Assembly: GCF_030540835.1 (NCBI RefSeq)
Contig: NZ_JAUOEK010000184.1
Span: 310,001-374,000, forward strand
Length of the DNA: 64,000 nucleotides
DNA from: Flavivirga aquimarina
Lineage (GTDB): Bacteria; Bacteroidota; Bacteroidia; Flavobacteriales; Flavobacteriaceae
Direction of reading: 5' to 3'
Both the position numbers and the translations under genes were made by a program. Shown piece by piece: positions 1-3,933 of this stretch. The notes beneath the pieces were generated by a model. The model made no database searches, was not told the origin of the DNA, and worked only from the letters and a program-made list of their open reading frames with translations. The first letter of the stretch is position 1, and each line of letters begins with the position of its first letter.

Positions 1-291
1 TCCCGGTCCTGAAGTTGCCATAGCAACGCCCACTCTACCAGAAATCCTTGCAAATCCTTGAGCGGCATGTGCTGCTCCTTGTTCGTGGCGTGTTAATACA
101 TGATGTATCTGATCTCTGTATTTATATAACTCATCATAAACCGGCATAATAGCTCCTCCTGGATATCCATAAAGAATATCTACACCTTCAGCTATTAAAC
201 ATCTTATGATGGCTTCACTACCACATATACGCTCTGTTTTCTGAGTTATTCCTTGTTCTTTTTTTATTGTTTCTGTATTATTCATACTCAT
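1..291 (-). CDS. ilvB: acetolactate synthase large subunit, N-terminal 97 residues (cut by window edge)
   Basis: Catalyses the first common step of branched-chain amino acid synthesis, with ThDP as cofactor. The visible N-terminus runs from ATG at 289-291 and stays open to base 1. It shows the ThDP-enzyme Pyr-domain pattern: G24-[23 protein letters not shown] (41-55) and [15 protein letters not shown] (68-82), where Glu70 is the expected cofactor-activating glutamate. A second in-frame ATG lies two codons later (283-285). It follows ilvD on the same strand with a 56-base gap holding a hairpin, so it is the second gene of the ilv operon. The catalytic and FAD regions lie outside the window. 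Confidence 0.95.
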
Positions 292-347: not shown

Positions 348-2036
348 TTAAAATGCATCCGTAACACATCCTTTTGATGCTGACGCTACCGATTTCGCAT
401 ATTTATATAATATCCCTTTCTTATGCTTTAATTCTGGTTGCACCCATTCTGATTTTCTTTTAGCAAGCTCTTCATCAGAAAGCAATACATTAATAGAATT
501 ATCTTCTGCACTAATTCTAATTTTATCACCAGTTTTTATTAATCCTATCGTTCCTCCTGTTTGTGCTTCTGGCGTAATATGACCTACAACAAATCCATGT
601 GTTCCTCCAGAAAAACGACCATCGGTAATTAATGCTACTGATTTACCTAAACCAGCTCCCATAATTAAAGACGTAGGCTTTAACATTTCTGGCATTCCAG
701 GACCACCTTTTGGTCCTACATAACGAATGACGACGACATCTCCTCTTTCTACTTCGCCATTAGAAATTCCTGTATTAGCTGCTTGTTCTCCATCATAAAC
801 CACTGCTTTTCCTTCAAACAACAAACCTTCTTTTCCAGATATTTTTGCTACGGCACCTTCAGACGCTAAATTCCCATAAAGGATTTGTAAATTTCCAGAC
901 GTTTTTAGTGCTTTATCTTTAGGGTAAATAACATCTTGACTGCCTTCTTCAAATTCAAGTGGCTCTACATCTTTTAAATTTTCTGCCAACGTTTTTCCCG
1001 TAACGGTTAAACAATCGCCATGTAAATAACCATTATCTAACAAATATTTCATTACTGAAGGTGTTCCTCCAATACTGTGAACATCCTCCATTAGGTATTT
1101 TCCACTTGGTTTTAAATCTGCTATTAATGGTGTTTTATCACTAACACGCTGAAAATCCTCTAAAGTAAAATCAATATCTGCTGCATGAGCAATCGCTAAA
1201 AAGTGTAATACCGCATTTGTAGAACCTCCTAATGCATTTACTAACGCAATAGCATTTTCAATAGATTTTTTAGTAATGATATCTAATGGTTTTAAATCTA
1301 ATTCTAGCAAGTTTTTTATCGCTCTGGCATGTCTTTCAGATTCCGATAACTTATTTGGATTTTCTGCAGGGATTGAAGAGTTATAAGGCAAAGCAAAGCC
1401 CATACATTCTATTGCAGAAGCCATCGTATTTGCTGTATACATCCCGCCACAAGCTCCGGCTCCGGGAATAGCTCTTTTTATAATTTCTCTATATTCTTCT
1501 TCTCCTATTTCACCAGCAACTTTTTGACCTAAAGCTTCAAATGCTGAAACAATATTTAGCTTTCTTCCTTTATAATTACCCGATGCTATTGTTCCACCAT
1601 ACATCATAATTGAAGGACGGTTTAAACGTAGCATTGCTATCACAGCTCCTGGCATATTTTTATCGCAACCTACAACAGAAATTAGTCCGTCATAACTTTG
1701 GGCATTCATTACTGTTTCTATAGAATCAGCAATAATATCTCTAGAGGCTAAAGAATAATTCATCCCGGAAGTTCCCATTGAAATCCCATCAGAAACACCA
1801 ATAGTATTAAATCCTAAACCAACTAATCCAGCTATCTTACACTCAATCTTTACCTCGCCGGCCAAATTGTTTAAATGCATGTTACATGGGTTTCCATCGT
1901 ACCCTGTACTAGCAATACCAATTTGAGCTTTATTCATATCTTCATCAGTCAAACCAGCTGCATATAACATGGCCTGTGATGCTGGTTGAGATTCATCCTG
2001 CGTCAACCTTCTACTATATTTATTGAGTTCTTTCAT
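348..2036 (-). CDS. ilvD: dihydroxy-acid dehydratase
   Basis: Dehydrates dihydroxy-isovalerate and dihydroxy-methylvalerate in the valine, leucine and isoleucine pathway, using an Fe-S cluster. The 562-residue length is normal. Family signatures are clear: [11 protein letters not shown] (49-59) with a cluster cysteine, [10 protein letters not shown] (123-132) with the second, [14 protein letters not shown] (193-206) with the third, and the C-terminal [15 protein letters not shown] motif. The ATG at 2034-2036 gives the expected N-terminus. It is the first full gene of the ilv operon and is controlled by the leader peptide and terminator at 2286-2406, about 250 bases upstream of its start. Confidence 0.97.
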
Positions 2037-2285
2037 TTTTATTACAGATAGCTTTGTGCTTTTTTCTTTTTTAATTTAATATTTTAACGATTTAAGAATT
2101 CTTTTAAAAATTCTATAATATTCCTAATATAAAATTCGAAATTAATTTATTAGGTTTTTATTCTATGTTATTCTTTAGTTTTTATGGTTAAATTCACAAT
2201 CGCTCAAAACAATGCAATCAATTGCATACCAATGGTTTAAGTCATTATTTTTATGATGTTCAAAAAATTAAAAAATATGTAATAA
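2037..2285 (-). other. long untranslated stretch between the ilv attenuator and ilvD
   Basis: About 250 very AT-rich bases lie between the attenuator terminator and the ilvD start. The clearest structure is an inverted repeat with 7-base arms 2212-2218 and 2221-2227 (atgcaat / attgcat). On the minus strand the same bases open a tiny frame, MQLIALF then stop (2204-2227). The repeat could be an operator; the mini-frame is probably chance. Nothing else was recognised. Confidence 0.35.
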
Positions 2286-2313
2286 AAAAGCCTTCCCGTT
2301 AAGGAAGGCTTTT
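2286..2313 (-). terminator. ilv operon attenuator terminator
   Basis: A perfect 11-bp stem (2286-2296 with 2303-2313) has a 6-base loop and, read on the minus strand, is followed by six U residues (2289-2284). It lies 30 bases beyond the stop of an Ile/Val-rich leader peptide and before ilvD. A competing pairing is visible: bases 2340-2347, at the leader stop codon, can pair with 2302-2307 in the terminator 5-prime arm, or instead with 2375-2381 inside the leader frame (7 bp, one G-U). This is the classical 1:2 / 3:4 versus 2:3 arrangement. Confidence 0.85.
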
Positions 2314-2343
2314 AAATTTTATATTATTTATATATATCGCTTC

Positions 2344-2406
2344 CTATCGTTGTGAAATAATCACAATGACAATAATAGAAACGGTATTTAATATTTGTTT
2401 TTTCAT
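2344..2406 (-). CDS. ilv operon leader peptide (attenuator), 20 aa
   Basis: ATG at 2404-2406 opens a 20-codon frame, MKKQILNTVSIIVIVIISQR, ending in TAG at 2344-2346. Six Ile, three Val and one Leu make up half the peptide, clustered at residues 9-17 just before the stop. The frame is followed by a strong terminator and then ilvD/ilvB, whose products make exactly these amino acids. Ribosome stalling at scarce Ile/Val codons would cover 2375-2381, free 2340-2347 to pair with the terminator arm, and allow read-through. The mechanism is known from enterobacterial ilv operons; its use here is inferred from sequence. Confidence 0.85.
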   Translation of the reverse strand: MKKQILNTVSIIVIVIISQR

Positions 2407-2417
2407 TTATACTTATA

Positions 2418-2449
2418 CAAAGATTTATAAATAAAATGTAATGAGCAAT
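2418..2449 (-). promoter_or_regulatory. probable promoter of the ilv leader transcript
   Basis: On the minus strand AATCTTTG (2418-2425) is one mismatch from the Bacteroidota -7 box TAnnTTTG, and ATTG (2446-2449) sits 20 bases upstream as a -33 element. Transcription would begin within about 10 bases of the leader-peptide ATG at 2406, giving a very short 5-prime end, as an attenuator requires. Confidence 0.5.
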
Positions 2450-2679: not shown

Positions 2680-3933
2680 ATGGCTTATTTATTTACTTCG
2701 GAAAGTGTTTCTGAAGGACATCCAGACAAAGTAGCAGATCAAATTAGTGATGCACTTATTGATAACTTTTTAGCTTTTGATACAGATTCGAAAGTGGCTT
2801 GTGAAACTCTGGTAACAACAGGACAGGTTGTTCTTGCAGGCGAAGTAAAATCTAACACGTATCTAGATGTGCAAAAAATTGCCAGAGACACCATAAATAA
2901 GATTGGCTATACCAAAGGTGAATATATGTTTGATGGTAATTCTTGTGGTGTACTTTCTGCAATTCATGAACAATCTGATGATATTAATAGAGGTGTCGAC
3001 AGAGCCAGTAAAGAACAACAAGGTGCCGGAGACCAAGGTATGATGTTTGGTTATGCAACTAACGAAACTGAAAACTTTATGCCTTTGGCTTTAGATCTAT
3101 CTCATAGAATCCTCATAGAACTTGCTGAATTAAGAAGGGAAAATAAAGACATTACTTATTTACGTCCCGATTCTAAAAGTCAGGTTACTATTGAATACAG
3201 TGATGATAATATTCCGCAACGTATTGATGCTATCGTAGTATCTACGCAACACGACGATTTTGGAGATGACGAGACGATGTTGGCTAAAATTAGAAAAGAT
3301 ATTGTTGAGATTTTAATTCCACGTGTTGTTGCTAAACTACCTGAGCAAATTCAGGTGCTATTTAACAACGACATTAAATACCATATAAACCCAACAGGAA
3401 AATTTGTTATTGGAGGACCTCATGGAGATACAGGCCTAACAGGGCGTAAAATTATTGTTGATACTTACGGTGGAAAAGGTGCTCATGGTGGTGGTGCATT
3501 TTCGGGCAAAGACCCTAGTAAAGTAGATAGAAGTGCTGCCTATGCGACACGTCATATTGCAAAAAATTTGGTTGCCGCTGGTGTTGCCGATGAAGTTTTA
3601 GTACAGGTAAGTTATGCTATTGGTGTTGTAGAACCTATGGGTATTTTTATCGATACTTATGGGACTTGTTCTTTTAATATGACTGATGGCGAGATTGCCG
3701 AAAAAGTTTCTGAAATTTTTGATATGCGTCCATTTGCTATTGAAGAACGTTTAAAACTTCGTTCTCCTATGTATAGCGAAACTGCTGCTTACGGACATAT
3801 GGGCCGTAAAAACGAAACGGTTTCGAAAACATTTAAACAACCTAACGGGGAAATAGCTAAGTTAGATGTGGAATTATTTACTTGGGAAAAACTGGATTAC
3901 GTTGATAAAGTGAAAGAAGCTTTTGGGTTGTAA
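2680..3933 (+). CDS. metK: S-adenosylmethionine synthetase
   Basis: Makes SAM from methionine and ATP. The 417-residue protein has the family landmarks: [16 protein letters not shown] (14-29) with the ATP-binding histidine, [12 protein letters not shown] near 115-126, and [19 protein letters not shown] (about 267-285), the phosphate-binding glycine-rich loop. The start at 2680 gives the usual [17 protein letters not shown]. It stands alone between the SAM-II riboswitch and a terminator, so SAM feedback on its own synthesis is likely. The C-terminus is about 30 residues longer than the E. coli enzyme, with a Bacteroidota-like insertion around 150-200. Confidence 0.97.

Follow-up and report, generated by a model that had tools for sequence, protein, structure and literature searches.

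Locus and operon context

The stretch of Flavivirga aquimarina DNA analysed here (the window, 64,000 nucleotides) carries a strong intrinsic terminator with a U-rich tail upstream of ilvD (stem 2313-2303 paired with 2296-2286, minus strand). As the upstream neighbour metK (2680-3933, + strand) is divergent, the hairpin at 2313-2286 is not a metK 3′ terminator and serves no upstream gene. metK is preceded by a SAM-II riboswitch (2515-2568, + strand; 48.3 bits, above the gathering score), which is divergent from the ilv leader and is the sole Rfam family at gathering score in the window. Downstream, the following genes were assigned:

348..2036, minus strand: ilvD, dihydroxy-acid dehydratase (TIGR00110, 721.8 bits)
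1..291, minus strand: 5′ part of ilvB; the rest lies beyond the window and is followed by ilvN, ilvC and ilvA

The resulting order, ilvD-B-N-C-A, is that of a cognate biosynthetic operon, as expected downstream of an attenuator.

A predicted branched-chain leader peptide precedes the terminator

A short open reading frame with its own promoter-like elements lies upstream of the terminator:

2446..2448, minus strand: −33 element TTG of promoter P1, 20 nt before the −7 box, a spacing that recurs in many related leaders
2418..2425, minus strand: −7 element of P1, AATCTTTG, 11 nt before the leader ATG
2344..2406, minus strand: leader peptide ORF MKKQILNTVSIIVIVIISQR, 20 codons (ATG 2406-2404, stop TAG 2346-2344)

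The original prediction had placed here a 20-codon leader with 10 branched-chain residues, a promoter directly before its ATG and a strong terminator behind it, and all three parts agree with our findings. The peptide (M K K Q I L N T V S I I V I V I I S Q R) holds 10 Ile, Leu or Val residues among its 20 (I5, L6, V9, I11, I12, V13, I14, V15, I16 and I17). The terminator stem starts about 30–31 nt past the leader stop codon, with ilvD a further 250 nt on. Flavobacterial promoters have a −7 consensus of TAnnTTTG, and we take AATCTTTG at 2425-2418 to be a −7 box of this type. Boxes matching [TA]AnnTTTG occur at most 26 nt before the ATG in 27 of 35 related leaders, compared with 1.9 expected from shuffles. 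A generic sigma-70 scan did not include P1 among its sites, the number of which was at chance level. No Shine-Dalgarno sequence was seen at the leader; Bacteroidota initiate translation mostly without Shine-Dalgarno pairing.

Predicted competing RNA structures and a proposed mechanism

The region from the leader codons to the terminator can be divided into the following segments:

2377..2386, minus strand: segment 1, which forms the 5′ side of the outer stem in the leader hairpin
2350..2366, minus strand: stem-loop forming the inner part of the leader hairpin (2366-2361 paired with 2355-2350), which covaries
2335..2345, minus strand: segment 2, which serves the leader hairpin as 3′ strand and the antiterminator as 5′ strand, overlapping the leader stop codon
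2303..2313, minus strand: segment 3, the terminator's 5′ arm, alternatively pairing with segment 2
2286..2296, minus strand: segment 4, the terminator's 3′ arm, with a T-run behind it

Alternative 1:2, 2:3 and 3:4 pairings had been part of the original prediction; the terminator arms stood as given, while segments 1 (2386-2377) and 2 (2345-2335) had to be shifted slightly. The fold of 2412-2280 reaches −34.6 kcal/mol (z = −6.3), a value equalled by none of 200 shuffles. In the window, the leader hairpin is strong (−16.4 kcal/mol, z = −4.5) and the 2:3 antiterminator, a helix of 6–7 bp interrupted by one bulge, is weak at −4.9 kcal/mol (z = −0.9; the median of 97 leaders is −7.4). Given a terminator of −16 kcal/mol against an antiterminator of −4.9 kcal/mol, the latter must form kinetically. 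The leader stop codon adjoins segment 2, and control codons 9–17 overlap both segment 1 and the inner stem, which is the layout expected for a ribosome that blocks or frees segment 2.

The ilvDBNCA operon is very probably controlled by a trp/ilv-type, ribosome-mediated transcription attenuator. Judging from the position of the box, transcription from P1 would begin only a few bases ahead of the leader ATG. With ample Ile- and Val-tRNA, the ribosome would get to the stop codon, next to segment 2, so that the 3:4 terminator would form and transcription would stop. When Ile or Val is scarce, the ribosome would stall at codons 9–17 and so cover the inner stem as well as segment 1, leaving segment 2 free for the 2:3 pairing, with read-through into ilvD. 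Without any translation, both the 1:2 hairpin and the terminator would be expected to form. Since Ile is the commonest residue in 97 leaders (30%), followed by Val (14%) and Leu (7%), the signal is probably the charging of Ile and Val tRNAs, more than that of Leu.

The strength of the structure in the absence of translation would also suit a terminator governed independently of the leader, by a riboswitch or a protein-bound attenuator (T-box-like or TRAP-like). When the leader region was compared with Rfam leader families, Phe_leader scored 34.3 of 55 bits and Thr_leader 24 of 55, both below the gathering cut-off. The lack of any family at gathering score in the leader, the conserved coding frame, arm sequences that vary while their logic stays, and a best sub-threshold match to Phe_leader, itself a leader-peptide family, make this mode of control extremely unlikely. 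The leader could instead be a regulatory uORF acting mainly on downstream translation, or encode a trans-acting peptide, without affecting termination. Trans-acting attenuator peptides do exist, as described for peTrpL in the available part of PMC7298713, but the ilvD start lies ~300 nt beyond the leader stop, with a terminator and a competing pairing in between, and we consider such a role very unlikely.

Leader and terminator recur upstream of ilvD in related genomes

To follow the predicted ribosome-mediated attenuator across relatives, for which the original prediction had called for an alignment of ilvD upstream regions, we scanned 700 nt upstream of ilvD for an ATG-initiated ORF in which six or more of 10 residues are Ile/Leu/Val, with a terminator within 110 nt. 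The set of 130 same-family regions comes from a search of 199 genomes, 154 of which had an ilvD match among the matches listed; 20 regions of a 120-region list were left out of it, and a further 80 named-genome loci partly overlap with it. Among these named loci, the closest relatives belong to the Flavobacteriaceae (for example Flaviramulus, Algibacter and Polaribacter). Leader and terminator together were found before ilvD in 66 of the 130 family regions. The reverse strand gave 4 such pairs and block-shuffled sequence none, which bears out the expectation of a conserved leader. With a tighter geometry, the pair was detected in 64 of 130 family regions and 24 of 80 named loci. The detectors ran without hand curation, and some of the 97 detected leaders (e.g., L050, L112 and L171) are probably due to chance.

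About half of the family regions have no attenuator module, and leader and terminator are mostly missing together: 49 of 64 regions without a hit also have no terminator-like site. Among the 15 that do have one, L132, L136, L157, L158 and L202 contain leader-like ORFs under looser rules, and in L097 and L138 a tRNA gene lies directly before the terminator. A terminator kept without its leader frame, which the original prediction had named as evidence against itself, was seen in one clear case, L108, where the frame is broken and which we read as a decaying copy.

These counts also bear on the idea that the short ORF is a chance product and the hairpin just terminates constitutively or acts as a spacer. 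AT-rich DNA readily yields Ile-rich frames, as the 4 reverse-strand matches illustrate. Against it stand the excess in the forward orientation (66 versus 4 and 0 of 130), the conserved peptide, the position of the promoter and the covarying hairpin, and the divergent metK leaves no upstream transcript to end; we therefore regard this idea as highly improbable.

Conservation of peptide and pairing

Alignment of 35 similar leaders, whose peptides are alike, showed an Ile/Leu/Val share of 51% in the leader frame versus 28% and 8% in the other two frames, and one relative (L098) carries an in-frame 3-nt deletion within the leader. The inner stem covaries, with 91% of cells paired and 8 cells altered on both sides; four measures (percentage, cells, types and covariation) were matched by none of 500 shuffles, and the fifth, the pair count, by 16. 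For the outer 1:2 stem, fixed-column covariation showed no excess (305 of 500 shuffles matched the percentage paired), in a column test that is blurred by indels.

We therefore also used a register-free swap test, in which the segments of each locus are scored against segments exchanged among loci, with phylogeny uncontrolled. Across 97 leaders, own segments scored 16.8 versus 15.2 for swapped ones in the 1:2 pairing (0 of 1000 permutations; phylogeny uncontrolled) and 14.8 versus 12.1 in the 2:3 pairing (0 of 1000, with the same limit). A second arm family, CTGTATCA-like and present in 21 of 97 leaders, follows the same pairing logic with another sequence. Within the CCTTCC-type class (n = 55), 14 of 1000 permutations matched the 1:2 score and none the 2:3 score; the corresponding numbers for the CTGTATCA-type class (n = 21) were 0 and 8. 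The fold of the leader region beats shuffles (z < −1) in 85 of 97 leaders, and in 89 of 97 a helix of 5 bp or more can form between segment 2 and arm 3.

Predicted tandem attenuators in relatives

Nine loci, 6 among the 130 family regions and 3 among the 80 named loci, have two leader-terminator units in series before ilvD, with both leaders rich in branched-chain residues and placed end to end. These loci are L021, L028 and, with CTGTATCA-type arms in the second unit (7 of 9), L008, L101, L134, L155, L160, L185 and L198. In all nine, the second ATG lies 10–26 nt past the first terminator stem, which leaves no space for a promoter of its own, so that both units should act on one transcript. 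If this is true, the two read-through probabilities of serial attenuators would be multiplied, which would sharpen the response. According to the available part of PMC3641672, tandem attenuators are known in Salmonella mgtCBR, likewise with two short ORFs per leader as in the nine relatives, in a different operon and with a different signal.

A conserved element and a putative second promoter

Between the terminator and ilvD we found a second conserved feature, accompanied by a promoter-like box:

2178..2273, minus strand: conserved DNA element with fixed internal spacing (model match), the probable operator of a second promoter
2137..2144, minus strand: promoter-like box TAATTTCG (putative P2), at a fixed distance from the element

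The element spans ~98 bp and consists of TTGAACATCATA, a palindromic core and GTGAATTTAACC, the last beginning 66 nt on. It was found in 91 of 210 loci under a loose rule, persists in loci without an attenuator (e.g., L092, L109 and L110), and its only strong match in the genome is the site upstream of ilvD. We also considered it as an RNA element; RNAalifold gave no pairs and no consensus structure, so this was dropped in favour of a DNA element. In 51 of 64 loci a TAnnTT[TC]G box lies at +117 to +119, and such a box occurs once elsewhere. In the simplest reading, element and box together probably form a regulator-dependent, unattenuated second promoter, and the predicted P2, being downstream of the terminator, would probably bypass the attenuator.

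The palindrome pattern has three sites in the genome, one of them (G000 C107:249944-249968, L259) just upstream of a leuA-like gene, while the reversed pattern, used as a control, has one match; the presence of the palindromic core upstream of this gene is a lead only. Tentatively, we can picture ilv in flavobacteria as possibly run by two stacked devices, namely a near-leaderless P1 with one or two serial attenuators and, in the gap from the last terminator to ilvD, a P2 behind a ~98-bp array of regularly spaced sites for a putative regulator, the palindromic core of this array being present upstream of leuA as well.

Other leaders in the genome and relation to known attenuators

In the same genome, hisG is preceded by a His-rich leader, MTFIQLHHHFHICSQAN, and a terminator (L221, reverse complement 1757-1869), and trpE by a Trp-rich leader, MNTILNNTWWWSFKNLRS, and a terminator (L222, reverse complement 2556-2679). 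From these leaders, peptide attenuation seems to be a general device in Flavivirga aquimarina. By the rule used, no terminator was found in the stretches around two homoserine-dehydrogenase genes, a leu cluster, a leuA-like gene and a pabB-like gene. Because peptide attenuation requires a ribosome close behind the polymerase, conserved ilv, his and trp attenuators in one Bacteroidota genome would be natural evidence for tight transcription-translation coupling. They would also offer annotated targets for the study of amino-acid regulation, of which little is known in this phylum.

The enterobacterial ilvGMEDA, ilvB, trp and his operons are controlled by leader-peptide attenuators, which share with the present locus a leader of cognate codons, protector and terminator pairings with a putative (here weak) antiterminator, and a biosynthetic operon downstream. 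Unlike these, the leader described here is unrelated in sequence, has no visible Shine-Dalgarno sequence and, with its box 11 nt before the ATG, would have a very short 5′ leader. The attenuator of Corynebacterium ilvBNC likewise combines a branched-chain operon with a short uORF or leader hairpins and differs in phylum and sequence (available parts of PMC11857589 and PMC10272879). Within the flavobacteria, a 2021 transcriptome study of Flavobacterium psychrophilum reported strong clues to leader-peptide attenuation before amino-acid operons (PMC9723704, available part), sharing with our case a leader peptide and a structured 5′ region; the term ‘ilv’ is absent from its main text. An earlier report (PMC2965389, 2010; available part) knew of no cases outside Proteobacteria and Actinobacteria before its own in Firmicutes. 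Our search for ilv or amino-acid attenuation in Bacteroidetes, with subscription journals mostly outside its scope, returned no paper matching all terms. That such leaders are little described in Bacteroidota, as originally stated, is thus fair, though in view of PMC9723704 they are not undescribed. The type of switch is already known, and the predicted ilv leader is a well-supported further case in a little-described phylum.

The coding part of ilvD shows a separate pattern. The IlvD of the window shares 86–94% identity with the IlvD of about 30 other genera and just 71% with that of a genome of the same genus (G019, L122), the upstream region of which is closely similar. This suggests that the coding part of ilvD was replaced in place.
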